Source: Elusimicrobiota bacterium (lineage in GTDB: Bacteria; Elusimicrobiota; Elusimicrobia; UBA1565; UBA9628). Taken from it: 64,000 bases of DNA. A program made the position numbers and the translations under genes. The stretch covers positions 1 through 64,000 of the forward strand of contig JACQWX010000076.1 in NCBI GenBank assembly GCA_016209035.1, read 5' to 3'. Positions 21,609 to 56,058 of the stretch are shown piece by piece; the stretch's first letter is position 1, and every line of letters starts with the position of its first letter. Below the pieces are notes generated by a model. It saw only the letters and a list, made by a program, of their open reading frames with translations, did not search any database and had not been told where the DNA came from.

Positions 21609-21635
21609 GCTTCCCTCCCCGCGGGGGAGGGAAGC
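21609..21635 (+). promoter_or_regulatory. RBS-burying hairpin in the leader of the GYF/coiled-coil gene
   Basis: A perfect 12-3-12 palindrome: GCTTCCCTCCCC, loop GCG, GGGGAGGGAAGC. The 3' arm holds the only Shine-Dalgarno-like sequence (GGGGAGG), and the ATG follows 5 bases after the stem. Folded, it would hide the ribosome site. Confidence 0.6.
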
Positions 21636-26857: not shown

Positions 26858-28005
26858 TGGGCAGGCTCAAGGTCGTCCATGTCATCACCCGCATGGACCT
26901 CGGCGGCGCCCAGGGCAACACCCTGTACACGGCCAGGCACCTCGACCCTGCGAAGTTCGACTGCGTCGTCGCCGTCGGCCCGGGCGGAGTCCTCGACGAG
27001 GACTTGCTCTCGCGCGCCCCGCCCAGGACGGTCTTCGTCCCGGGCCTGGTGCGCGAGATCCGACCCTTGCGCGACCTCGGGGCCATCTGGCGGCTCTGGC
27101 GGCTCTTCCGCGCCGAGCGCCCGGACATCGTGCATACGCACAGCTCCAAGGCCGGCATCCTGGGCAGGGTCGCGGCCCGGCTTGCCGGCGTCCGGGCGGT
27201 CGTCCACACCTACCACGGCTTCGGCTTCCACGACCTCATGCCTGCCTGGCGCAAGTGGCTCTATGTCCAGGCCGAGCGGCTGGCATGCCGCCTGACCCAC
27301 CGCGTGGTCTTCGTGTCGAACGCCAACGTCGACTACGCCCGGCGCCACGGGCTCATCAAGCACGGCCGGGAAACCCTCATACGCTCTGGTGTCAAGCTGG
27401 GGGACTTTCCAGCAAGGCTTGCCGACCGGCAAGCCTTGCTTTCTTCGGTCGGTCTTCCCGGGAAGAAGCTCCTTGTCACTTCCATCGGGAACCTCAAGCC
27501 CCAGAAGAACCCTCATGACTTCCTCTCCCTCGCGAGCAGGCTCGCGAGGGAGTTCAAGGACGCCGGGTTCCTTTTCGTCGGCGAAGGCCCGCTGCGCCCG
27601 GAGCTGGACCAGCGCGTCGGCGACGCCCCCGGCTCCTTGTCCCTGCCCGGCTGGCGGTTGGATGTCCCGCAGATCCTGGCCGCGAGCGACGTCTTCGTCC
27701 TGACCTCGCTGTGGGAAGGCCTGCCGCGGACCCTGGTCGAGGCCATGGCCACGGGGCTGGCCTGCGCGTGCTACGAGACCGACGGCGTCAAGGACCTCCT
27801 GCGGGACGCCGAGAACGGCTGCCTCGTCCCCAAAGGCAGCCTGCCCTTGCTGATCGAGCGGGTGCGAGGGCTCCTTCAGGACGCGGATTCAAGACGCCGC
27901 TTGGGGGAGAACGCCCGCCGCAGCGTCTCGACCGAGTTCGACATAGACCTCATGGTGCGCCGGCAGGAAGAGCTCTACTGCGAGCTGTTGCGGCCCAGCC
28001 GATAA
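26857..28005 (+). CDS. GT4-family glycosyltransferase
   Basis: 382 residues, GT-B fold. The N-terminal acceptor domain has VHVITRMDLGGAQGNTL and DIVHTHSSKAGILGRVAARL. The C-terminal nucleotide-sugar domain has TSIGNLKPQKNPHDFL, VGEGPLRPEL and the EX7E-like SLWEGLPRTLVEAMATG. It transfers a sugar during polysaccharide or glycoconjugate synthesis at the inner membrane; the sugar is not predictable. The start is GTG 26857, one base inside the SpoIID stop. Two perfect palindromes lie within the gene (27411-27440 and 27525-27552). Confidence 0.9.
   Translation: MGRLKVVHVITRMDLGGAQGNTLYTARHLDPAKFDCVVAVGPGGVLDEDLLSRAPPRTVFVPGLVREIRPLRDLGAIWRLWRLFRAERPDIVHTHSSKAGILGRVAARLAGVRAVVHTYHGFGFHDLMPAWRKWLYVQAERLACRLTHRVVFVSNANVDYARRHGLIKHGRETLIRSGVKLGDFPARLADRQALLSSVGLPGKKLLVTSIGNLKPQKNPHDFLSLASRLAREFKDAGFLFVGEGPLRPELDQRVGDAPGSLSLPGWRLDVPQILAASDVFVLTSLWEGLPRTLVEAMATGLACACYETDGVKDLLRDAENGCLVPKGSLPLLIERVRGLLQDADSRRRLGENARRSVSTEFDIDLMVRRQEELYCELLRPSR
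27411..27440 (+). repeat. Intragenic perfect palindrome (13-4-13)
   Basis: AGCAAGGCTTGCC, 4-base loop, GGCAAGCCTTGCT inside the GT4 gene. The arm carries the same GCAAGG/CCTTGC theme as the intergenic hairpins at 28038 and 35623. Confidence 0.75.
27525..27552 (+). repeat. Intragenic perfect palindrome (13-2-13)
   Basis: CTCCCTCGCGAGC, 2-base loop, GCTCGCGAGGGAG, 84 bases after the first palindrome in the GT4 gene. Confidence 0.75.
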
Positions 28006-28037
28006 AGGAGCGCGCAAGCCTGCTGGCGGCAACGACA

Positions 28038-28066
28038 GCGCGGCAAGGGGAGACCCCTTGCCGCGC
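28038..28066 (+). terminator. Strong hairpin after the GT4 operon
   Basis: A perfect 13-bp stem (GCGCGGCAAGGGG / CCCCTTGCCGCGC) with 3-base loop AGA, 33 bases after the GT4 stop. The sequence after it (TCGCCTTTCT) is only weakly T-rich. It marks the end of the high-GC operon; the low-GC island starts just after. Positions 28067-28166 hold no gene. Confidence 0.6.
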
Positions 28067-28166
28067 TCGCCTTTCTGGCAGCCCCAAACCTGTTTCATGG
28101 CAAGCTGGCGCTGGAATTCCTCGACCGCTCGAGAAAATATGAGGATGTAATTTCTGACGCATTCAC

Positions 28167-35547: not shown

Positions 35548-35649
35548 TGCACGCCAAGGGATTCCGGCTGCCGCCCCTGCGCCAGGCGCAGGCGCCGGAA
35601 TCCCTTGGCGTGCAAGGCCTCAGGATCCCTTGCCGTCGGCAAGGGATCC
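35548..35649 (+). promoter_or_regulatory. Two long perfect hairpins between acpP and rnc
   Basis: The first hairpin has perfect 21-base arms (35548-35568 and 35594-35614) around a 25-base loop that itself contains CTGCG/CGCAG. The second, 35623-35649, is a perfect 12-3-12 stem (GGATCCCTTGCC / GGCAAGGGATCC) whose 3' arm holds the only Shine-Dalgarno-like AAGGG of rnc. Such long duplexes are good RNase III substrates, so self-regulation by the product of rnc is plausible. Confidence 0.65.
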
Positions 35650-44573: not shown

Positions 44574-44753
44574 ATGGCAGAGACATTGGTCGTGGTCAGC
44601 AAAATCAAGGCGATGGTGAAGGCCGCGGGATTGAGGACCGGGGCCGACTACGTCGACGGGCTCTCCAAGAAGGTCGTTGAGCTCGTCCAGGCGTCCATCA
44701 GCAAGGTCAACACCGAAGGCGGCAAGAAGACCCTCGGCGCCGAGGACCTCTAG
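44574..44753 (+). CDS. Bacterial histone-fold protein
   Basis: 59 residues, one histone fold. Helix 1 covers SKIKAMVKAAGLR, then the L1 loop TGADYVDG, helix 2 (LSKKVVELVQASISKVNTEG) and the L2 loop with the hallmark KKTLGAEDL (basic residue, Thr, then Asp-Leu), ending in a very short helix 3. Length and pattern match small bacterial histones such as Bdellovibrio Bd0055. It would bind DNA as a dimer. GAGGAGG precedes the ATG and TAGAAT at 44551-44556 may be its -10. It lies 23 bases upstream of the MidA-type gene. Confidence 0.8.
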   Translation: MAETLVVVSKIKAMVKAAGLRTGADYVDGLSKKVVELVQASISKVNTEGGKKTLGAEDL

Positions 44754-44776: not shown

Positions 44777-45892
44777 TTGAACTCGGCAGCCGCCAAAGGG
44801 GCGTCGTCGGTCACCTTCAGGGACTTCATGGAGTCCGCCCTCTACGGAGAGGGGGGATTCTACGGGAGACGCGCGCCCAAGGAAGACTTCTACACCGCGC
44901 CCGAGCTGCACCCCGTCTTCGGGGAGACCCTGGCCGGGGAGATCCTCACGCGCCTCGACGACCTCGAGCGCGGCGGGGCGGCCCGTCCCTTCTCCATCGT
45001 CGAGATGGGGTCGGGGTCCGGCCTCCTGGCCGAGCAGATCATCGGGGCCCTCCGGCGGGACCATCCGGGGCGGGTCCAGGGCGTCCGCTACGTCCTGGTC
45101 GAGCGCGAGCGCAAGCTCCTGGTATCGAGCGTGCTGCGGCTCTCCGAGCTGGGCATGAGGATCTCGGGCGCGTCCGACGTCTCGGAACTGCCCCCGACGG
45201 CCGGGGTCTTCTTCTCCAACGAGCTCGTGGACGCCCTCCCTTTCCATCTCCTGGAGAGGCGAGGCGACAAGGTGCACGAAGTCTACGTGGGATCGGATGG
45301 GGCGACGGTCCTCGGGGAGCTCTCGACCCCCGAGCTGGAGGCCTACGCCCGGAGCCTGCCCGAGGCGGCGCAGGGGCTGAGGCACGCCGTGAGCCTCGAG
45401 GCCCTGCGGTGGCTCAGGGCGGTGGCGCGCGGGATGACCGCGGGCTGCCTCATCACCGTGGACTACGGCGCGAGGATGCCCCCCTGCGCCCTCAACCCGC
45501 CCAGGGCCTACTCCAAGCACGCCGAGGACGACCGCCTCACGGCCCCGGGCAGGGACCTCACCGCGAACGTGGACTTCGAGACCCTCATCCAGGAAGGCGC
45601 CAAGCTGGGGCTCGAGATGGAATCCTTCTCCACCCTCGGCCGCTTCCTCCTGGATCGTATAGGCTCTTCCTCGCCGATCCGTCCTGGGCGAAGCCCAGGG
45701 CTCGATCGGGCGGTCACGCCGGCCCCTGCGCCGGGGGCGCAGGCCGCGGCCGACGCGATCTCACTGCTCAGGATCAAGACCCTCATCCATCCGGACGGCA
45801 TGGGGGAAACCCACAAGGTGCTCATACAAAGGAAAGAAACGGCGACTAGCCCCCTCCGGCTACTTGCCCTCCCCGTGGGGGAGGGCAAGTGA
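44777..45892 (+). CDS. MidA/NDUFAF7-family SAM-dependent methyltransferase
   Basis: 371 residues of the COG1565 family. The opening [20 protein letters not shown] fits the family start (FxxFMExALY). SAM motif I is [17 protein letters not shown], followed by [11 protein letters not shown], the [20 protein letters not shown] motif and [11 protein letters not shown]. In eukaryotes NDUFAF7 methylates an Arg of NDUFS2 (NuoD) during complex I assembly. Here the stop overlaps nuoA as GTGA, and NuoD keeps the target-like HRG motif. The start is TTG 44777. A Pro/Gly linker near the C-terminus holds a CCTGGGC palindrome. Confidence 0.88.
45863..45889 (+). promoter_or_regulatory. RBS-burying hairpin at the nuoA start
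   Basis: A perfect 12-3-12 stem: CTTGCCCTCCCC, loop GTG, GGGGAGGGCAAG. The last G of the stem is the first base of the nuoA GTG codon, and the Shine-Dalgarno GGGGAGG is inside the 3' arm. A ribosome finishing the methyltransferase gene would open it, which couples the two. Confidence 0.6.
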
Positions 45893-46233
45893 ACGCCGTC
45901 CTCGCCCTCTTCGTGCTGGCGCTCCTGTTCGCGGCCGGGGCGCTCGTGACCGCCTGGCTGCTGCGCCCGGCCCTGGGCTACGCCAGGAAGCTCACGGTCT
46001 ACGAGTGCGGCATGCCGACCGTCGGCACGACCCAGGTCAAGCTGAACATCCGCTTCTACGTCTTCGCCCTGCTGTTCCTGGTCTTCGACGTGGAGACCCT
46101 CTTCGTCTTCCCCTGGGCGGTCGTCTGCCGGGAGCTCGGGCGCGTGGCTTTAGCCGAGATGGCCGTCTTCCTGGCCATCCTGTTCCTCGGCCTGATCTAC
46201 GCCTGGCGCAAGGGGGCCCTCGAATGGGAGTGA
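45889..46233 (+). CDS. nuoA: NADH-quinone oxidoreductase subunit A
   Basis: 114 residues with three membrane helices. The family core is [10 protein letters not shown] and [20 protein letters not shown] followed by FVFPWA, with the conserved acidic residue in the second helix (FDVE). Part of the membrane arm of complex I next to the quinone site. Start GTG 45889, coupled to the methyltransferase gene; overlaps nuoB by 10 bases. Confidence 0.96.
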
Positions 46234-46775
46234 TCCTGGAGAGGCTCCCCGGGGCCGTGAAAGGCGTGCCCGGCGCCGGGGTGGTCCTGACCACGGCCGA
46301 CGTCTTCATCGACTGGTCCAGGAAGTACTCCCTGTGGCCCGTGACCTTCGGCCTGGCCTGCTGCGCCATCGAGATGATGGCGGCCTACGCCTCGCGGTTC
46401 GACTTCGACCGCATGGGCGTCATGCCCCGGCCGAGCCCCCGCCAGGCCGACGTCATGATCATCGCGGGCACGGTCGTCAAGAAGATGGCCGAGCCCATCA
46501 TCCGGATCTACCACCAGATGCCCGAGCCCCGCTTCGTCATCTCCATGGGCAGCTGCGCCAACTGCGGCGGCCCCTACTACGACTCCTATTCCGTGGTGAA
46601 GGGCGTCGACCGCATCATCCCGGTGGACGTCTACGTCGCCGGGTGCCCGCCGCGTCCCGAGGCCCTCTTCTACGCCGTGCTCAAGCTCCAGGAGAAGGTC
46701 CAGAAGATGAGGATCTCCAAGGGCGCGGGAGCCACGCCGCAGGCCGAGAAGGGCCCCAGGAACGTCGCGGCATGA
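46224..46775 (+). CDS. nuoB: NADH-quinone oxidoreductase subunit B
   Basis: 183 residues. Carries the N2 [4Fe-4S] cluster; the ligands are the double Cys in [11 protein letters not shown], one Cys in [13 protein letters not shown] and one in [12 protein letters not shown]. It passes electrons to quinone. The start ATG 46224 lies inside the end of nuoA; a longer frame upstream overlaps nuoA entirely and was rejected. The C-terminal 25 residues are variable. Confidence 0.97.
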
Positions 46776-47344
46776 ACATCGAGTCCCTCGTCGCCGACCT
46801 CGCCGCGAAGGTCCCGGGCGTGGTCCTGGCCGCCGATCCCAGCTATGTCAAGTCCTATCCGACGATGAGGCTCTCCTCGGCCGCGTACCTGCTGCCGGCC
46901 GCCTCTTTCCTCAAGGAGCGCGGGTTCGACTATCTCGAGATCATCACGGCCGTGGACTGGCTCGGGCCCGTCAGCCCGGAGGGCTACACCCGGGGAGGGA
47001 GGAACCCGCATCCGTTCTCGGCCCCGGAGGCGCCCGCGCTCGTGGCCGTGAAGAATCCCGCGGCGGCCTACAAGCCGGCGTTCGACATGCTGTGGTGCCT
47101 GGCCAACATCCCGGCGAGGGCACGGCTGTTACTGCGCCTGGAGATCCCCCGGGAGGACCCTGCCGTTCCCAGCCTGACCGGCCTCTTCAAGGCCGCGGAC
47201 TGGCAGGAACGCGAGGTCTTCGACCTGCTGGGGGTCCGGTTCGAAGGGCATCCCAATCTGAAGAAGATCCTGACGCCGGATTTCCTGCAGGGGCATCCGC
47301 TGAGAAAAGATTACGTCCATGTGAAGGACAGGTACGATGAGTAA
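46772..47344 (+). CDS. nuoC: NADH-quinone oxidoreductase subunit C
   Basis: 190 residues of the 30-kDa subunit. The core motif is [20 protein letters not shown] followed by [12 protein letters not shown], ending with GHPLRKDYV. It is separate from NuoD, not fused. Starts at ATG 46772, overlapping nuoB as ATGA, and overlaps nuoD by 8 bases. Confidence 0.95.
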
Positions 47345-48461
47345 AGTGGACGCTTTCCCGGGCGGAAAGTTCGACCAGCTGTTCGTCAACCTGGGTCCCC
47401 AGCACCCGTCGACCCACGGGGTCCTGCGCGTCGGCCTGACCCTGGAAGGGGAGGTCATCACCAAGGCCGAGCCGGACATCGGCTACCTGCACCGGGGCAC
47501 CTCCAAGCTCGCCGAAGCCCGGGGCTACCACCAATGCGTGGCGCTGACCGACCGCTGGGATTACGTCTCGGCCATGCCCAACAACCTGGCCCTGTGCCTC
47601 GCGGCCGAGAAGCTCCTCGGAGTCGAGATCCCTCCCCGGGCCCAGCACCTGCGGGTCGTCATGTGCGAGCTCAACCGCATCGCGAGCCACCTCCTCTTCC
47701 TCGGCACCTACGGGATCGACCTGGGCGCATTCACCCCGTTCCTCCATGCCTTCCGCGAGCGCGAGATGATCCTGGACCTCTACGAGATGCTCTGCGGCGC
47801 GCGGCTCACCTATAACTACATCAGGATCGGCGGCGTGATGGCCGACATCTCGCCGGAGTGGGCCTCCAAGACGGGTGAGTTCCTGGGCTTTTTCAAGCCC
47901 AGGATGAAGGAATACGACGACCTCCTCTCCTTCAACCCCATCTTCCTCGCGAGGACGCAAGGGGTGGGCCTCATCTCCAAGGAGGCCGCGGTGGACTGGG
48001 GACTCTCCGGCCCGAACCTGCGCGGCTCCGGCGTCGACTACGACGTGCGCAAGTCCGACCCCTATTCAGGGTACGACCGGTTCGACTTTTCGGTGCCCCT
48101 GGGCAAGGCGGGCTCGTGCTGGGACCGATACTACTGCCGCGCCCTCGAGATGCGCCAATCCGTGCGCATCGTCGAGGCGGCCCTGGCGGGCCTTCCCGAG
48201 GGCGACATCGTGGCCAAGGGCGTGGCGAAGACCGTGAAGCCGCCGCCGGGCGAGGCCTACGCCCACGTCGAGGCATCCCGGGGCGACCTCGGCATCTACC
48301 TGGTCTCGGACGGCGGGCCCTCGCCCTACCGCCTGCACGTCCGCGCCCCCTCCTTCGTCAACCTCGCCATCCTCCAGGAGATGCTCGTCGGCTGCAAGGT
48401 AGCCGACGTGGTCGCGATCCTGGGGTCCATCGACATCGTCCTGGGAGAGACCGACCGGTGA
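47337..48461 (+). CDS. nuoD: NADH-quinone oxidoreductase subunit D
   Basis: 374 residues of the 49-kDa quinone-site subunit. Motifs are NLGPQHPSTHGVLRVGLTLE, PDIGYLHRGTSKLAE with Arg53, and the conserved C-terminal VADVVAILGSIDIVLGETDR. The Cys ligands of the NiFe-hydrogenase ancestor are absent, as expected. The HRG Arg aligns, from my knowledge of the family, with the residue methylated by NDUFAF7 in mitochondria, and a NDUFAF7-type gene starts this operon. Confidence 0.97.
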   Translation: MSKVDAFPGGKFDQLFVNLGPQHPSTHGVLRVGLTLEGEVITKAEPDIGYLHRGTSKLAEARGYHQCVALTDRWDYVSAMPNNLALCLAAEKLLGVEIPPRAQHLRVVMCELNRIASHLLFLGTYGIDLGAFTPFLHAFREREMILDLYEMLCGARLTYNYIRIGGVMADISPEWASKTGEFLGFFKPRMKEYDDLLSFNPIFLARTQGVGLISKEAAVDWGLSGPNLRGSGVDYDVRKSDPYSGYDRFDFSVPLGKAGSCWDRYYCRALEMRQSVRIVEAALAGLPEGDIVAKGVAKTVKPPPGEAYAHVEASRGDLGIYLVSDGGPSPYRLHVRAPSFVNLAILQEMLVGCKVADVVAILGSIDIVLGETDR

Positions 48462-49741
48462 GCGAGCTCTACCCGAAACCGGTCTTCAGCAAGAAGGCGG
48501 GCAGGCTCCTGAAGACCAGGCTCTGGCCCACCGAGCGATGGGCCAGCCCCTGGTCCCAGCCGCAATACAGGAGGTCCGCCGGCATGCTGGCGGGCATCAT
48601 CTTCGGCATCCTCCTGGTCGGCGTCGTCGTGGGCGAGCTCTCGAAGTGGGGCGACCTCCTCTATCGGCTCCTCCTGACCGGCACGGCCTGGCTCCACCAG
48701 ACCCTCCCGGCCTACGGCGCGCCGGCCGGGTTCCTCGGGGACGCCGCGGACATCACGTGGATCTCCTTCAAGGTGATCGTGATCGTGGCCGTCATCAACC
48801 TCAACGGCCTCTGGGCGGTCTGGTGGGAGCGCAAGCTCTCGGCCCACATGCAGTCGCGCCTGGGGCCGATGTACGCGGGGGGGTTCCACGGATGGGCGCA
48901 GACCGCTTTAGACGCCGTCAAGCTCCTGCTCAAGGAGGACGCCCGGCCGGCCGACGCGGACGGCGCCGTGCACAGGCTTGCGCCGGTCGTCGTCATCGTC
49001 CCGGCTGTCCTGGCCTTCGCCCCGGTGCTCTTCGGCAAGGAACTGGCCGCAGCGAAGCTCGACGTCGGAGCCCTCTACGTCCTCGCCGTCTCCGGCGTCT
49101 CGGTCATCGGCATCGTCATGGCCGGGTGGGCCTCGAACAACAAGTTCTCCCTTCTGGGCGGCCTGCGCTCCGCCGCCCAGGTCGTCAGCTACGAGATCCC
49201 GCGCATCTTCGCGGTCGTCCCGGTCCTGATGTTCGTGGGCTCCCTTGACCTGGCCGTCATCGACCAGGCGCAGCAGGGCTACTGGTGGGGCTTCTTCCCA
49301 CGGTGGTTCGTCTTCTGGTTCCCCGCCGGTCCCCTGGCGTTCCTCCTGTTCCTCATCGCTTCCTTGGCCGAGACAAACCGCGTCCCCTTCGACATCCCGG
49401 AGGCCGAGTCCGAGCTGGTGGCCGGGTTCATGACCGAGTACTCCGGCATGAAGTGGGCGCTGTTCTTCCTGGCCGAGTACGCCTACGTGCTCCTGGCCTG
49501 TTTCATGCTCTCGGTCTTCTTCCTCGGCGGAGGGGCCGCGCCCCTGCCTTTCCTGGCCATCGTGCCGAGCTGGATCTGGATGCTGGCCAAGGCCTTGGCC
49601 ATGATGTTCCTCTTCATGTGGCTGCGCTGGACCCTGCCGAGGTTCCGGGTCGACCAACTCATGGACTTCAACTGGAAGTTCCTGCTGCCGTGGAGCTTCG
49701 CCTGCGTCGGGCTGGCGGGAATCATGCTGCTGTGGATATGA
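48458..49741 (+). CDS. nuoH: NADH-quinone oxidoreductase subunit H
   Basis: 427 residues, about eight or nine membrane helices. Signatures are WERKLSAHMQSRLGPMYAGG, followed by the KLLLKEDARPADAD loop that lines the quinone channel, and AETNRVPFDIPEAESELVAG. About 60 N-terminal residues (KPVFSKKAGRLLKTRLWPTE) precede the first helix and exceed most homologues. Start GTG 48458, overlapping the nuoD stop as GTGA. Confidence 0.96.
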   Translation: MSELYPKPVFSKKAGRLLKTRLWPTERWASPWSQPQYRRSAGMLAGIIFGILLVGVVVGELSKWGDLLYRLLLTGTAWLHQTLPAYGAPAGFLGDAADITWISFKVIVIVAVINLNGLWAVWWERKLSAHMQSRLGPMYAGGFHGWAQTALDAVKLLLKEDARPADADGAVHRLAPVVVIVPAVLAFAPVLFGKELAAAKLDVGALYVLAVSGVSVIGIVMAGWASNNKFSLLGGLRSAAQVVSYEIPRIFAVVPVLMFVGSLDLAVIDQAQQGYWWGFFPRWFVFWFPAGPLAFLLFLIASLAETNRVPFDIPEAESELVAGFMTEYSGMKWALFFLAEYAYVLLACFMLSVFFLGGGAAPLPFLAIVPSWIWMLAKALAMMFLFMWLRWTLPRFRVDQLMDFNWKFLLPWSFACVGLAGIMLLWI

Positions 49742-49742
49742 C

Positions 49743-50276
49743 ATGACCGGCTACTTCCATCGGATCGCCCGGGACTCCTGGGCCGTGTGCAAGGGGATGT
49801 GGGTGACGCTTCGCACCCTGGTCAAGCCCTCCATCACGGTCCAGTACCCGACGGAGAAGCTCACGCCCGAGCCCATGTTCCGCGGCGTCCTGCTCTACGA
49901 CGTCGAGCGCTGCACCGCCTGCGGGCTGTGCGCGAAGGCCTGCCCCTCGAACTGCATCTCCCTCCAGAACCAGGTCAACGAGGCGGGCAAGAGGGCGCCC
50001 AAGGCCGCCTGGTACGCCATCGACCTGGGCCGGTGCAGCTGGTGCCGCCTCTGCGAGGAATCGTGCCCGTTCAAGCCCAAGGTCGTCTGGCACTCCATCG
50101 ACTACGAGCTCGTCTTCTGGTCGCGCGACGAGATGGTCCGCTGCTGGAAGCCGGGGACCCCGCTGGCAGGCTGGGTCCACGACCCCAAGAAGGACGCCTT
50201 CCGCGACCCGTCAGGGCAGGTCGTCATCCAGGAAGTGCCGGCGCGCCACGACGAAAAGGGGCCCAAGCATGATTGA
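49743..50276 (+). CDS. nuoI: NADH-quinone oxidoreductase subunit I
   Basis: 177 residues with two [4Fe-4S] motifs, ERCTACGLCAKACPSNCI and GRCSWCRLCEESCPFKPKVV, for clusters N6a and N6b. Amphipathic N-terminus (TLVKPSITVQYPTEKL). It connects the electron-input end to NuoB. Since NuoE, NuoF and NuoG are not in the operon, NuoI may receive electrons from ferredoxin or another donor. Starts one base after nuoH. Confidence 0.96.
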   Translation: MTGYFHRIARDSWAVCKGMWVTLRTLVKPSITVQYPTEKLTPEPMFRGVLLYDVERCTACGLCAKACPSNCISLQNQVNEAGKRAPKAAWYAIDLGRCSWCRLCEESCPFKPKVVWHSIDYELVFWSRDEMVRCWKPGTPLAGWVHDPKKDAFRDPSGQVVIQEVPARHDEKGPKHD

Positions 50277-50820
50277 GGTTGCCGTCTTCTGCTCGATGGC
50301 CGCCGTGGCCCTGGTCTCGGCGGTCCTGGTCGTGACCCTGCGCAACACCGTGCACTGCGCGCTCTTCCTGGGGCTCTCGCTCGCCGGCGTGGCCGGCGTG
50401 TTCGGGACCCTGGCTGCCGACTTCCTCTTTGTCAGCCAGATTCTCATCTACGTGGGCGGGATCGCGGTCCTGATGATCTTCGCGGTCATGCTCATGGGCA
50501 GGACCTCCGACCTCACCCTCAGGCAGGTCAACCAGGAATGGCTGGCGGGCCTGCTGGTCTGCGCCATCACGGCCGCGGGCCTCCTGCGCCAAGCCAAGGG
50601 CTTCCTCGGGAAGGCCGCGGACGCGCCCGCCCGTGCGCTGGCGGCGCAGGCGGCGACCAAGCCCCTGGGCAGGCTCATGCTGGGCGACTTCGCCGTCCCC
50701 TTCGAGCTCATCTCCCTGGTGCTCATGGCGGCCCTGCTCGGCGCGATTTTCTTCACACGGAAAGAAGACGAACCCAAATCAACGGAAAACGGCAAGCCAG
50801 GCCGTGGGGGAGGCACGTAG
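50269..50820 (+). CDS. nuoJ: NADH-quinone oxidoreductase subunit J
   Basis: 183 residues with five membrane helices. The family core is TLRNTVHCALFLGLSLAGVA and LFVSQILIYVGGIAVLMIFA followed by VMLMG. The extra-long loop between helices 4 and 5 (AKGFLGKAADAPARALAAQA) is Ala-rich. Overlaps nuoI by 8 bases; nuoK starts one base after its stop. Confidence 0.95.
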   Translation: MIEVAVFCSMAAVALVSAVLVVTLRNTVHCALFLGLSLAGVAGVFGTLAADFLFVSQILIYVGGIAVLMIFAVMLMGRTSDLTLRQVNQEWLAGLLVCAITAAGLLRQAKGFLGKAADAPARALAAQAATKPLGRLMLGDFAVPFELISLVLMAALLGAIFFTRKEDEPKSTENGKPGRGGGT

Positions 50821-50821
50821 C

Positions 50822-51127
50822 ATGACCCTCTCCCACTACGTCGCCCTCGGGTCGATCCTTTTCATCATCGGCGTCTTCGGGGCCCTCACCCGGCGCAGCG
50901 TCATCGGGATCCTGATGTCCGTCGAGCTGATGTTCAACGCGGCCAACATCAACCTGGCAGCCTTCAACCGCTACCTCCACCCGACCGGGGTGACGGGCCA
51001 GGCCTTCGCGCTCTTCATCATGACGGTCGCGGCCGCCGAGGTGGTGGTGGGGCTGGCGCTGGTGCTGGCGATCTACAGAAGAAGGGACAAGATCTACATG
51101 GAAGACATCAACCTCATGAGAGGCTAA
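50822..51127 (+). CDS. nuoK: NADH-quinone oxidoreductase subunit K
   Basis: 101 residues with three membrane helices. Motif GILMSVELMFNAANINLAAF holds the conserved membrane Glu, and TVAAAEVVVGLALVLAIYRR the second. MrpC-like proton-channel subunit. Its TAA shares a base with the nuoL ATG. Confidence 0.96.
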   Translation: MTLSHYVALGSILFIIGVFGALTRRSVIGILMSVELMFNAANINLAAFNRYLHPTGVTGQAFALFIMTVAAAEVVVGLALVLAIYRRRDKIYMEDINLMRG

Positions 51128-53136
51128 TGATCTCCCGCGCCTGGCTGATCCCGATCCTGCCGCTGGCCGCGTCGCTCGTCATCCTTTTCTTCGGCCGGGA
51201 GCGGGAGGACTCGCCGCTGCCGTTCGTCGGCATCGCGGCGATCGGGGCCTCCCTCTGGATCGCCCTGCGCATCCTCTTCGACGTCGCCCTGGGGACCCTG
51301 GCCCTTCCCTACGAGAATGACTGGTCGTGGTTCTCCTTCGCGGCTGACCTCAAGGGGCACCCCTTCATCCTCGACATGCGCGCGGGCGTCCTCGTCGACG
51401 GAGCGGCGGCGGCCATGCTCGCGGTGGTCTGCCTGGTGAGCCTGCTGGTGCAGGTCTATTCGCTGGGCTACATGCGCGGCGACGCCAAGTTCAAGCGCTA
51501 CTTCGCCTACATGTCCTTCTTCACGGCCTCGATGCTGGGCCTAGTCGTCTCCAACAACCTCCTCGTGACCTTCGGCTGCTGGGAACTGGTCGGGGTGTCG
51601 AGCTACCTCCTCATCGGGTTCTGGTTCGAGAGGGAGGCTCCTGCCTACGCGGCCAAGAAGGCGTTCATCACCACCAAGCTGGGGGACCTGGGCTTCTTCC
51701 TGGCCCTGCTCCTGACCTTCCTCTACGCCGGCAGCTTCAACATCGTCCGCGTCAAGGACGTCGTCGAGATGGGCTACATGCCTCCCTTCGTCGTGACCCT
51801 CATCGGCCTGGGGCTCCTGAGCGGAGCCGCGGGCAAGTCCGCTCAGGCGCCGCTCTTCATCTGGCTGCCGGACGCCATGGAAGGCCCCACCCCGGTCTCG
51901 GCCCTCATCCACGCCGCCACCATGGTGGCGGCCGGCATCTACCTGGTGGCCCGGTGCTACTTCGTGTTCGCGGCGAGCCCCCTGGCCATGGAGACCGTGG
52001 CCTGGGCGGGGCTCGTCACGGCCTTCCTCGCGGCGACCATGGCCCTGGTCCCCTACGACATCAAGCGGGTGCTCGCATTCTCCACGGTGAGCCAGCTCGG
52101 GTTCATGATGTGCGCCCTGGGGGTGGGAGGCTACACCGCCGGGCTTTTCCACTTGACCACGCACGCCTTCTTCAAGGCCCTGCTTTTCTTGTGCGCCGGC
52201 TCCGTCATCCACGCGGTCCACACCAACGACATGCGCTCCATGGGGGGGTTGTCCAAACGGATGCCCCTGACCTTCCTCACCATGGTGGTGGGAGCCGCCG
52301 CCATCTCGGGCATCCCTCCCCTGGCCGGGTTCTACTCCAAGGACCTCATCCTCGAGAAGGTCTTCGAGCACAGCCCGGCCATGTTCGGGGTCCTGGCCCT
52401 CACCGCGTGCCTCACGGCTTTCTACACCTTCCGGATGCTGTTCCTGACCTTCTGGGGCGACGGCCGCAACAACGAGCGGGTCAGCCGCGCGGAGGAATCC
52501 CAGGCCGTGATGACCATCCCTCTCCTCATCCTGGCCGCGCTCTCCCTGGTCTCGGGCTGGGCCCTGGAGCATGCCTGGGCCGCAAGCCCAGGGGCCGCAG
52601 GCCCAGGCGCCTTCGCCTCCCTCGTGGGACCCGGGGTCGCCGCAGCCGAGCACGGTGCGACGGGCGCGGCGCGCCACGTCAATCCCACGGTCCTGGCGGC
52701 CTCCGTCACCGCCGGCGCGTGCTGCTTCATCGCGCTCGCTTACTCGCTCTACTGCGGCCCGGACCTCGGGGCCGCGGAGCGGCTCAAGGCCAGGTTCCTG
52801 CCGGTCTTCAAGCTGCTGGAGAACCGCTGGGGGTTCGACGCCTTCTTCCTCGCGCTGGTCGACATCGCCGACAGGGTCGCGGACCTAGCCAAGTGGGTCG
52901 ACACCGAGGTCATCGACAAGGTCTTCGTGGACGGCTGGGGGGTGCTCACTCGCATCGCCGCGGAGATCAGCCACCTTTTCGACGCCCTGTTCGTGGACCA
53001 GGCCGTGGACGGCTGCGGGTACTTGAGCCGCGACTGGGTCGGGGCCGGCCTGCGCGGCCTCATCGCGCGCGGCCAGGTCCAGGAATACCTGCTCTACCTC
53101 GCGGTCGGAGTGAGCCTCTTCGCGATCATGAAATAG
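51127..53136 (+). CDS. nuoL: NADH-quinone oxidoreductase subunit L
   Basis: 669 residues, antiporter-like subunit with the long lateral helix. Core motifs are TFGCWELVGVSSYLLIGFWF, GKSAQAPLFIWLPDAMEGPT followed by PVSALIHAATMVAAG, and STVSQLGFMMCALGVGGYTA. The C-terminal amphipathic region (LKARFLPVFKLLENRWGFDA) is present. An Ala/Gly/Pro-rich insert near 52574-52592 contains a CCTGGGC palindrome. One of the three proton-pumping subunits. Confidence 0.96.
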   Translation: MISRAWLIPILPLAASLVILFFGREREDSPLPFVGIAAIGASLWIALRILFDVALGTLALPYENDWSWFSFAADLKGHPFILDMRAGVLVDGAAAAMLAVVCLVSLLVQVYSLGYMRGDAKFKRYFAYMSFFTASMLGLVVSNNLLVTFGCWELVGVSSYLLIGFWFEREAPAYAAKKAFITTKLGDLGFFLALLLTFLYAGSFNIVRVKDVVEMGYMPPFVVTLIGLGLLSGAAGKSAQAPLFIWLPDAMEGPTPVSALIHAATMVAAGIYLVARCYFVFAASPLAMETVAWAGLVTAFLAATMALVPYDIKRVLAFSTVSQLGFMMCALGVGGYTAGLFHLTTHAFFKALLFLCAGSVIHAVHTNDMRSMGGLSKRMPLTFLTMVVGAAAISGIPPLAGFYSKDLILEKVFEHSPAMFGVLALTACLTAFYTFRMLFLTFWGDGRNNERVSRAEESQAVMTIPLLILAALSLVSGWALEHAWAASPGAAGPGAFASLVGPGVAAAEHGATGAARHVNPTVLAASVTAGACCFIALAYSLYCGPDLGAAERLKARFLPVFKLLENRWGFDAFFLALVDIADRVADLAKWVDTEVIDKVFVDGWGVLTRIAAEISHLFDALFVDQAVDGCGYLSRDWVGAGLRGLIARGQVQEYLLYLAVGVSLFAIMK

Positions 53137-53145
53137 GACTTCACC

Positions 53146-54618
53146 ATGGAACTTCCACTTCTGTCGTTGATCACCTTCATCCCCCTGGCCGGGGCCTTGG
53201 CGGTGCTGTGCCTGCCCAAGGACCTCCGGCGCGCCATCGAAGGGGTGTCTTTGGCCGCGGCCGCGGTCCCCTTCGCGCTCTCGGCGTGGCTCTACTTCGC
53301 CTTCGACCGGTCCACCGCCGCCATGCAGTTCGTCGAGCGCCACGGCTGGATCTCTTCGTCCGCCGTGCGCATCGACTACTACCTGGGCGTCGACGGCCTC
53401 TCGGCGCCTTTGGTCATGCTGACGGCGCTCATGTCCCTGGTCGCGCTCATCGCGAGCTTGGGCATCAAGGAGCGGTTCAAGGAGTACGCCTTCTGGTTTT
53501 TGATCCTCGAGGTCGGGATGCTCGGCGTGTTCGAGTCGCTCGACTTCTTCCTGTTCTACGTCTTCTGGGAGATCACCCTGGTCCCCATGTACTTCCTCAT
53601 CGGCATCTGGGGAGGGCCGCAGAAGGAGTACGCGGCCATCAAGTTCTTCCTCTACACGCTCACCGGGTCCGTCTTCATGCTGCTTGGCATCCTGGCCATG
53701 TACTTCAAGGCCACGCCGCACACCTTCGACATGCTCGAGCTCATGAAGATCCACGGGGCCTTGAGCTTCAAGTTCCAGGCCCTCGTGTTCCTGGCATTCT
53801 ACTTCGGCTTCGCCGTCAAGGTGCCGGCCTTCCCGTTCCATACCTGGCTCCCGCTGGCCCACGTCGAAGCTCCGACCGCGATCTCGGTCATCCTGGCGGC
53901 CGTGCTCCTCAAGATGGGCGTCTACGGCATCATGAGGGTCTCCTACCCCATGCTCCCGCTGGGGTTCGAGTGGTTCCTGCCCTACCTCGTGGTCATCGCG
54001 GTCATCAACATCGTCTACGGGGCGCTCTGCGCCATGGCCCAGAACGACATGAAGAAGATGGTCGCCTATTCCTCCATCAACCACATGGGCTACTGCCTCC
54101 TGGCCATCGCGGGGGTCACGGCCACGGGCTTCTCCGGCGCTGCCTTCCAGATGGTCAACCACGGCATCATCACCGGGGCGCTGTTCCTTCTCGTCGGCGT
54201 CATCTACGACCGGGCCCACACCCGCGACATCGGGGCCTTCGGCGGCCTGGCCACCAAGGTGCCGGTCTACGCGGGCCTGATGTCCTTGGCGTGCTTCGCG
54301 TCCCTGGGCCTGCCCGGCATGGCGGGGTTCGTGAGCGAATTCCTCTGCTTCCTGGGCGCCTTCCCGCGCTGGAAGATCTACACGGCCATCTCCGTCCTCG
54401 GCATCCTCACGACCGCGGCCTTCTTCCTGCGCATGCTCGAGAAGGTCTTCCTGGGCCCTCTCAACAACCGCTGGGCGGATCTCACGGACATGAACGCGCG
54501 GGAACTGGTCTCGCTCGTGCCCCTGGCGGTGCTGATGGTCGTGCTGGGGATCTGGCCCAGGCTTGCGCTCGACATGATGAACGCGACCATGGTGAACCTG
54601 GCGGGATTGTTCAAATAG
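53146..54618 (+). CDS. nuoM: NADH-quinone oxidoreductase subunit M
   Basis: 490 residues, antiporter-like with about 14 helices. Motifs are GVDGLSAPLVMLTALMSLVA, LFYVFWEITLVPMYFLIGIW with the key Glu, KVPAFPFHTWLPLAHVEAPT and AYSSINHMGYCLLAIAGVTA. Proton-pumping subunit between NuoL and NuoN. Starts 9 bases after nuoL; nuoN begins one base after its stop. Confidence 0.96.
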   Translation: MELPLLSLITFIPLAGALAVLCLPKDLRRAIEGVSLAAAAVPFALSAWLYFAFDRSTAAMQFVERHGWISSSAVRIDYYLGVDGLSAPLVMLTALMSLVALIASLGIKERFKEYAFWFLILEVGMLGVFESLDFFLFYVFWEITLVPMYFLIGIWGGPQKEYAAIKFFLYTLTGSVFMLLGILAMYFKATPHTFDMLELMKIHGALSFKFQALVFLAFYFGFAVKVPAFPFHTWLPLAHVEAPTAISVILAAVLLKMGVYGIMRVSYPMLPLGFEWFLPYLVVIAVINIVYGALCAMAQNDMKKMVAYSSINHMGYCLLAIAGVTATGFSGAAFQMVNHGIITGALFLLVGVIYDRAHTRDIGAFGGLATKVPVYAGLMSLACFASLGLPGMAGFVSEFLCFLGAFPRWKIYTAISVLGILTTAAFFLRMLEKVFLGPLNNRWADLTDMNARELVSLVPLAVLMVVLGIWPRLALDMMNATMVNLAGLFK

Positions 54619-54619
54619 C

Positions 54620-56058
54620 ATGAACGGACTGGGGCTCCTCCTCGCCGACCTGGCCGCGCCCCCCCGCCGAAAGCGGCTCCTCTACGGCTTGACGCTGCTC
54701 TCAGGCGCGGCCGTGATGGTCCTGCTGGTCCTGCCGCTCCAGGGGCCGAAGCCCTTGTGGGGCCTCGGGCCGTAGACCCCTTCAGCCTGTTCCTGAAGAT
54801 GGTCGTGCTGGGCTCGGCGGTCCTAGCCCTGCTCCTCACCCTCGACGACTCCAGCATCCCGGAGCCTGCTTCGGGGAGCTTCAGCTGCCTCATCCTCCTC
54901 TCCACGGTCGGCATGATGTTCCTGGTGTCGGCCACGGACCTCCTCCTCGTCTTCGTCTCCCTGGAGCTGGTCTCCATCTCCTCCTTCATCCTCGCCGGCT
55001 ACGAGCGCGCCAACCCCAAGTCCAACGAAGGCTCGCTCAAGTACTTCATCTTCGGCGCCTTCTCCTCGGCCGTGATGGCCTACGGCATCTCGCTCTTCTA
55101 CGGCGCCACCGGGGGGACGACCCTCATCGCGGTGCGGGCCTTGGGTCCCTTGGCGCTCACCGGGCTTCTCTTCATCCTGGTGGGATTCGGCTTCAAGGCG
55201 GCCCTGGCCCCCATGCACTTCTGGGTGCCCGACGCCTACGAAGGCGCCCCCACCCCGGTCACCGCCTTCCTCTCCGTGGCTCCCAAGATCGCGGCGTTGG
55301 GCGCCTTGGCCAGGCTCCTGGCGGCGCTCATCCCGGCGGCTTCCGTGGACCTGGGCAACCTCCTCTCCATCCTGTGCTGCCTCACCATGACGGTCGGCAA
55401 CTTCGTCGCCCTGTTCCAGCGCAACGTGAAGAGACTCCTGGCCTACTCCTCCATCGCGCAGGCGGGGTACATCGTGATCGGCGTCGTGACCGGCGACGCC
55501 ATGGGCATCCAAGGCATCCTGATCTACTCCTTCGTCTATGTCGCCATGAACATCGGCGCCTTCGCCGTCGCCATCGCGCTCGCCAACGACCGCCGCGGCG
55601 CCTCGCCGAGCGCCCACGCCCGCCTTGACGGCGCCCGGCACGGCGGGCCATCCGGCCTGGACGCCGCCGACCCCTACGACCTCGACTCCTTCGACGGGCT
55701 GGCCTCCCGGTCGCTCCCCGCGGCCCTGGCCATGACCTTCTTCCTGCTCTCCCTGGCCGGCATCCCGCCGCTCGCGGGCTTCTTCGGCAAGTTCTACCTC
55801 ATCGGCTCCGCGGTCGGGACGGCCCATTACGGCCTGGCCGTGGCGGCGGTGGTCAACAGCGTGGTGTCCGTGTACTACTACATGTCCATCTCGTACCGGA
55901 TGTTCTTCGTGTCTCCGAGGAAGGGGGCTCGCGCCCCGCGCATCGGGATCTGTCTCTACGCGACGGCGGCCCTGGCCCTGGCCGTCACCCTCTTCTTCGG
56001 CATCCTGCCGCACCGCCTGGCCGCCTGGGCCCAGCTCTCGGCGAAGTTCCTGCCGTAG
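54620..56058 (+). CDS. nuoN: NADH-quinone oxidoreductase subunit N, with frameshift near codon 50
   Basis: ATG 54620 opens a frame (MNGLGLLLADLAAPPRRKRL...) that hits TAG at 54773-54775. The rest of NuoN (AVDPFSLFLKMVVLGSAVLA onward, about 430 codons) is in another frame from about 54757. Joined, they match NuoN with a short first helix. Motifs are KAALAPMHFWVPDAYEGAPT and AYSSIAQAGYIVIGVVTGDA. A loop of about 25 residues containing LDGARHGGPSGLDA is inserted relative to the family and matches a dispersed repeat. The frameshift may be an assembly error, because all other nuo genes are intact. Confidence 0.85.
55630..55665 (+). repeat. 36-bp dispersed repeat, copy in nuoN
   Basis: 32 of 36 bases match 43811-43846 in the TPR gene, and both are read in the same frame. 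It lies in a cytoplasmic or periplasmic loop of NuoN, where homologues have no such insert. Confidence 0.7.

Follow-up and report, generated by a model that had tools for sequence, protein, structure and literature searches.

The methyltransferase NDUFAF7 is required for the assembly of human complex I and dimethylates Arg85 of the subunit NDUFS2 (PMC3829151). The equivalent arginine is reported to carry symmetric dimethylation in Paracoccus, a mark that E. coli lacks (PMC3750175); Thermus thermophilus has a threonine at the equivalent site (PMC8042128). According to the latter source, dimethylation of this arginine beside cluster N2 is known from mammals, two yeasts and one alphaproteobacterium, and the role of the mark in assembly or catalysis is described there as unconfirmed. 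According to a review, bioinformatic and structural data suggest the same activity for alphaproteobacterial homologues (PMC9006661). The enzyme family is already known, as is methylation at this site in one bacterium, Paracoccus.

The alphaproteobacterial MidA homologues belong to the same family as the enzyme described here, but in the two records seen their gene is located between lgt and pgeF, away from nuo. In the literature searched, we found no MidA-type gene linked to nuoA, which we do not extend to a claim of absence from print.

Organization of the locus

The window, i.e., the whole stretch of 64,000 nucleotides that was analyzed, lies on contig C67 of a 4.2-Mb genome with Elusimicrobiota metagenome-assembled genomes as closest named relatives. 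Between positions 44574 and 56058, a single strand carries a histone-fold gene, the methyltransferase gene and nuoA-B-C-D-H-I-J-K-L-M-N (Table 1). No nuoE, nuoF or nuoG is present in the interval from nuoA to nuoN. The genome contains a single PF02636 gene and two NuoA genes, a high-scoring one at the methyltransferase locus and a low-scoring one on contig C104. The latter is part of a second Nuo-like cluster (G000:C104, which is L158; see also L159 and L160), in which genes for L-, M- and N-type subunits lie ahead of nuoA, nuoB and nuoC. This low-scoring NuoA type also occurs in relatives without the main complex I and without the methyltransferase.

Table 1. Features of the methyltransferase-nuo locus (positions in the window).
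Feature	Positions	Strand	Evidence or remark
59-aa histone-fold protein, heading the conserved histone - methyltransferase - nuo cluster	44574..44753	+	phmmer
MidA/NDUFAF7-superfamily SAM-dependent methyltransferase, 371 aa, TTG start	44777..45892	+	PF02636, PDB sequences, Foldseek, dN/dS
57-bp structured dispersed repeat, in frame within the methyltransferase gene	45648..45704	+	genome copies, alignment
Perfect 13-bp hairpin across the nuoA ribosome site	45862..45890	+	complementary arms, folding
GTGA, shared by the methyltransferase stop and the nuoA start	45889..45892	+	sequence
nuoA	45889..46233	+	PF00507 E 2.4e-34
nuoB	46224..46775	+	PF01058; NuoB models above cut-off
nuoC	46772..47344	+	PF00329
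nuoD, proposed substrate	47337..48461	+	PF00346; TIGR01962 481 bits vs cut-off 459
NuoD Arg53 codon, HRG motif	47493..47495	+	equivalent of NDUFS2 Arg85
nuoH	48458..49741	+	PF00146
nuoI	49743..50276	+	4Fe-4S domains
nuoJ	50269..50820	+	PF00499
nuoK	50822..51127	+	PF00420
nuoL	51127..53136	+	PF00361, PF00662
nuoM	53146..54618	+	TIGR01972 above cut-off
nuoN, start uncertain	54757..56058	+	PF00361 E 5e-66

Family, fold and selection

The gene upstream of nuoA encodes a methyltransferase of the MidA/NDUFAF7 superfamily. The original prediction had assigned it to COG1565, and PF02636 (E 1.8e-34), a PDB profile search and the predicted fold all agree with this assignment. The PF02636 match scores 119.8 bits against a curated cut-off of 23.3 and spans positions 2-246 of the 249 in the profile, i.e., its full length. 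A profile built from 16 relatives recovers only COG1565/MidA chains from the PDB (4f3n, 6.6e-37; 1zkd, 5.5e-23; 5ztz, an NDUFAF7 homologue, 6.2e-21), and the alignment keeps the stretches DFxTAPE, EMGxGxGxL, DALPxH, DYG, PGxxDLTxxVDF and MGxxxKV. Likewise, the first six Foldseek rows are all COG1565/MidA (E 1.9e-19 to 2.6e-18, TMq 0.61-0.63), the next family following at 1.6e-8; the underlying model has a pLDDT of 77, with low confidence for the insert and the termini. Aligned to 5ztz through the profile, the window protein shows the glycine-rich SAM motif as well as the family stretches, and 14 of the 16 aligned relatives retain this motif, L007 and L008 deviating from it. No NCBIfam model matches the protein at E up to 0.001.

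The best matches by both sequence and fold are the COG1565 structures of Burkholderia (4f3n/4g67) and Rhodopseudomonas (1zkd), the titles of which state no function. With NDUFAF7/MidA the window protein shares the PF02636 family, the fold and the family stretches, at 21-22% identity to 5zu0/5ztz in the fold alignment, and a complex I partner is implied by gene order. Unlike the mitochondrial assembly factor, the Elusimicrobiota gene is placed directly before nuoA with a 4-nt overlap. Comparison with the same-genus relative gives a dN of 0.16 and a dS of 0.74; the resulting dN/dS of about 0.22 indicates purifying selection on the methyltransferase gene.

The junction with nuoA

As originally read, the methyltransferase stop overlaps the GTG start codon of nuoA (45889) in the tetranucleotide GTGA. 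A 4-nt overlap recurs in 27 of the 32 Elusimicrobiota junctions having a called start; the other five comprise three overlaps of 7-8 nt, one junction with neither overlap nor gap, and one with a gap of 61 nt. In the six Nitrospirales junctions, the genes are separated by 41-76 nt.

It had further been proposed that the last methyltransferase codons form a hairpin that hides the nuoA ribosome site and serves coupling. The structure itself is present: two perfectly complementary 13-nt arms (45862-45874 and 45878-45890), which include the ribosome site GGGGAGGG, enclose a 3-nt loop, and the 65-nt junction stretch folds at -33.9 kcal/mol, with a mean unpaired probability of 0.20 for the ribosome site. 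A role as the coupling device is not supported in the form proposed. We folded 38 junctions (32 from Elusimicrobiota and 6 from Nitrospirales, after dropping L095 and L107, for which no nuoA start could be called), and only the window junction has the hairpin (z -4.6, the next lowest being -1.9), so that a conserved coupling or attenuation hairpin was rejected. The junction of the same-genus relative L078 has no hairpin (z -0.34). In the alignment, the hairpin falls in a C-terminal extension of the methyltransferase that relatives do not have. The stop/start overlap, and not the hairpin, is the conserved feature of this junction.

Six distinct perfect hairpins (stem of at least 12, loop of 3-8) occur in the window, compared to one in ten shuffles together. 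The junction hairpin is therefore not random, yet it is not peculiar to the junction either; this genome tends to carry such palindromes, and the one before nuoA is a local peculiarity. The six are located at 21609-21635, 27411-27440, 27525-27552, 28037-28067, 35623-35649 and 45862-45890. Two of them share the core CCCTCCCCGNGGGGGAGGG, which is also found on C104; exact copies of the 19-base core of the junction hairpin lie at 21613-21631 and on that contig. The idea that the hairpin as such is a multi-copy repeat was discarded: unlike the core, the 27-mer occurs only once in a search allowing up to 3 mismatches.

The histone-fold neighbor and dispersed repeats

In phmmer searches, the 59-aa protein encoded upstream of the methyltransferase matches solved bacterial histones (9qt0, E 3e-7; 8fvx, 1.3e-5; 8cmp, 1.4e-5), and its sequence is similar to the Bdellovibrio and DUF1931 types. 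Its gene is the conserved first neighbor of the Elusimicrobiota complex I cluster, with or without the methyltransferase in between, and it accompanies the methyltransferase in 36 of the 69 methyltransferase-holding loci examined. No match to such a histone appears at the Nitrospirales loci. One might imagine that the enzyme methylates Arg21 (RTGADY) of this neighbor, a single operon thereby tying chromatin modification to respiration. This residue is invariant in all 46 sequences, from 36 loci with the enzyme and 10 without, so its conservation does not discriminate the histone as a target, and we give the idea almost no credence.

The methyltransferase gene also contains a dispersed repeat that is read in frame and is located, in the alignment, at a stretch of ~25 codons that is missing from the methyltransferase of the same-genus relative. 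Nine further copies with 86-94% identity are found in the genome, on C7, C20, C37, C62, C116, C117, C120, C126 and C132 (L064-L072), and the repeat, about 55 bp long, folds into two stems at -28 kcal/mol. An in-frame repeat of this kind is reminiscent of the Rickettsia palindromic elements in coding genes. Next to it, a second GC-rich inverted-repeat stretch at 45710-45757 is similar to about 30 short sequences of 23-49 bp scattered over the genome, a likeness that may be simple GC-rich similarity.

Gene order and co-occurrence

The original prediction placed a homologue of the assembly factor in a bacterial complex I operon and named an adjacency unique to this contig as the outcome that would speak against it. 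The linkage is borne out across genomes: it is found in relatives and in Nitrospirota. Among 57 relatives, 36 match the methyltransferase. In 33 of them, the gene immediately precedes nuoA, the match ending no more than 135 nt before a NuoA match in the same orientation, which is far beyond chance; the three unlinked cases are G049, G050 and G051. NuoA scores above 100 bits in 41 of the relatives, which include all 36; the five with such a NuoA and no methyltransferase match are G017, G024, G042, G044 and G048. None of the 16 relatives without NuoA above 100 bits matches the methyltransferase; in two of these 16, NuoA is represented by a fragment at the edge of a contig and nothing more. In these 57 genomes, the gene lies beside the high-scoring NuoA and never beside the low-scoring second copy.

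An even sample of 198 Elusimicrobiota genomes, overlapping the set of 57, gives a similar picture. PF02636 scores above cut-off in 18 of them, with four further weak hits below, and all 18 have a NuoA of 108 bits or more; the gene is adjacent to nuoA in 13 and not in 5. Expressed the other way, PF02636 is present in 18 of the 38 genomes with NuoA of at least 96 bits versus 0 of the 160 others.

In Nitrospirota, 87 of 118 genomes contain PF02636, located directly upstream of nuoA in at least 24 of the 87 when adjacency is taken as under 500 nt between the PF02636 and NuoA profile matches. In three others it lies 4-5 kb upstream of nuoA, and in 60 it is elsewhere or was not seen. At least 82 of the 87 genomes with the methyltransferase have NuoA versus at least 27 of the 31 without, and with such similar frequencies presence alone is uninformative in this phylum. 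A scan of named genomes with two peptide patterns, which is not a census, yielded 63 loci, with linkage in 34/37 of Elusimicrobiota type, 7/11 of Nitrospirota and 0/15 of Acidobacteria. Two of the three unlinked Elusimicrobiota-type loci stop at a contig edge (L107, L138), and the third is L112. One of the 23 source genomes of the non-Elusimicrobiota loci has no NuoA match.

Of the 14 control genomes, just Caulobacter, Synechococcus and Haloferax contain PF02636, each together with NuoA; it is absent from E. coli and Thermus composti. Its absence from E. coli, where the arginine is unmethylated, and from Thermus, in which T. thermophilus has threonine at the site, fits a role in arginine methylation. 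Taken together, the methyltransferase-nuoA adjacency is a genuine, conserved and functionally suggestive operon link in two phyla.

Phylogeny, loss and replacement

In a tree of 63 methyltransferase proteins, the linked Elusimicrobiota sequences form one clade (100/99, with L157), the linked Nitrospirales sequences another (100/100), and Acidobacteria together with unlinked Elusimicrobiota proteins a third (92/87). The tree has weak deep branches and meeting long branches, and comprises no eukaryotic sequence. Within these limits, the linked clade stands apart from the alphaproteobacterial references S. meliloti and Azospirillum, and its descent with the alphaproteobacterial/mitochondrial branch was not recovered. 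A single clade of all linked methyltransferases is not rejected (AU p 0.186).

In a NuoD tree made by a quick method, three genomes without detected methyltransferase (G017, G024 and G044) are nested inside the linked clade. Here nuoA begins 101-189 nt after the histone gene, so the methyltransferase appears to have been cleanly lost while the complex I genes were kept. The methyltransferase is dispensable for retention of complex I genes in these three relatives.

This retention after loss would also be expected if the arrangement were merely inherited gene order and the methyltransferase had a target outside complex I, and both the NuoD and the methyltransferase trees make the Elusimicrobiota order look like one inheritance. 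On the other hand, the same order recurs in Nitrospirota with a separate enzyme clade (with the caveat that the data do not reject a single origin), the overlap persists in different families, and the enzyme is missing from every genome of the phylum sample without a high-scoring NuoA. We thus consider a mere neighborhood effect improbable.

In sister families, the position between histone gene and nuoA is occupied by a UbiE-like gene (L051, L052, L059, L151, L152, L153). Like the MidA-type gene, this UbiE/MenG gene encodes a class I methyltransferase directly upstream of nuoA and behind the same histone gene, but it belongs to a different family and accompanies futalosine-pathway genes. Among the 57 relatives, PF01209 reaches 100 bits only in G048-G051, the best score in the window genome being 39.5 bits. 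One could therefore suppose that the enzyme replaced UbiE/MenG as quinone methyltransferase. Against this, family and fold are those of MidA and not UbiE, PF02636 being the one Pfam family detected in the window protein at E up to 0.001, with no PF01209. In addition, PF02621 of the futalosine menaquinone route exceeds 100 bits in G048-G051 only, so that ubiE accompanies this pathway. Moreover, five genomes with ubiE in this position (G049, G051, G148, G169 and G207) hold MidA elsewhere, and G050 has a partial MidA match. A replacement of the quinone methyltransferase is very improbable. The f13 genomes and the sampled distant families (L141-L150) have neither the histone nor the methyltransferase gene before nuoA.

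The candidate target

The HRG motif that had been noted in NuoD reads H52-R53-G54, and the equivalence of Arg53 to NDUFS2 Arg85 is taken from the published peptide KCDPHIGLLHRGTEK (PMC3750175). All 33 linked Elusimicrobiota NuoD sequences have HRG. In NuoD from enzyme-less genomes, 13 of 14 have HRG and one HRN, the arginine thus being present in 14/14, and over the 60 NuoD sequences compared it is found in all (58 HRG, one HRA, one HRN). Since NuoD retains the arginine in genomes that lack the enzyme as well, the presence of the target residue is non-diagnostic, and we rejected HRG as evidence of methylation.

Two of the three loss genomes carry the changes T55V, H65A and W74L near Arg53 of NuoD. 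A compensatory change after enzyme loss was not retained as an explanation, as V55 also occurs in Nitrospirales with a linked enzyme, the choice of residues was post hoc and n is 3. A comparison of L171, L172 and L173 shows that NuoD of G017 resembles G044 in its N-terminal changes near Arg53 and G024 in its C-terminal ones, a pattern that might reflect a mosaic or convergence.

The enzyme could also serve complex I through another target, be it another position in NuoD or one in NuoB, or act as a non-catalytic chaperone. The deep separation of the linked clade from the alphaproteobacterial references, the non-diagnostic arginine and the deviating SAM motif of L007 and L008 are consistent with this. 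However, the one known substrate of the family is this very arginine (PMC3829151, PMC9006661), and the glycine-rich motif in the other 14 relatives argues for catalysis in most of the relatives. We regard another target as unlikely, albeit deserving of some weight.

In our preferred model, the gene product would be a biogenesis factor for the complex encoded by the downstream nuoABCDHIJKLMN. Most likely, it would symmetrically dimethylate Arg53 of NuoD, a residue next to cluster N2, either ahead of the assembly of the quinone-site module or while this proceeds, and the 4-nt stop/start overlap would couple its translation to that of nuoA. The original prediction likewise supposed methylation of this arginine, and suggested that the coupling would supply the factor ahead of the complex.

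Conclusion

Operon linkage in combination with the known role of the family makes an action on complex I likely, with Arg53 as the first candidate. The role in complex I is supported by family and fold, linkage, overlap, co-occurrence with NuoA, purifying selection and the pattern across Paracoccus, E. coli and Thermus. We count against it that the arginine is kept without the enzyme, the losses in G017, G024 and G044, the enzyme-less Nitrospirota with NuoA, the unlinked genes in 60/87 Nitrospirota, 15/15 Acidobacteria loci and 5/18 genomes of the phylum sample, the position of the linked clade outside the alphaproteobacterial branch, and the one of 23 non-Elusimicrobiota source genomes without NuoA. 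On balance, we think it probable, with moderate confidence, that the methyltransferase acts in the biogenesis of the complex I encoded by the 11 nuo genes, most likely via symmetric dimethylation of NuoD Arg53.

New in this work are the operon coupling in two further phyla and the natural knockouts, i.e., the relatives that have complex I without the gene. The cultured Nitrospira strains make the question of arginine methylation testable by mass spectrometry. The location of the gene beside those of complex I suggests that the tagging step may extend further across bacteria than previously shown; if so, the arginine modification, or a methyltransferase dedicated to complex I, would reach well beyond the proteobacterial-mitochondrial line.
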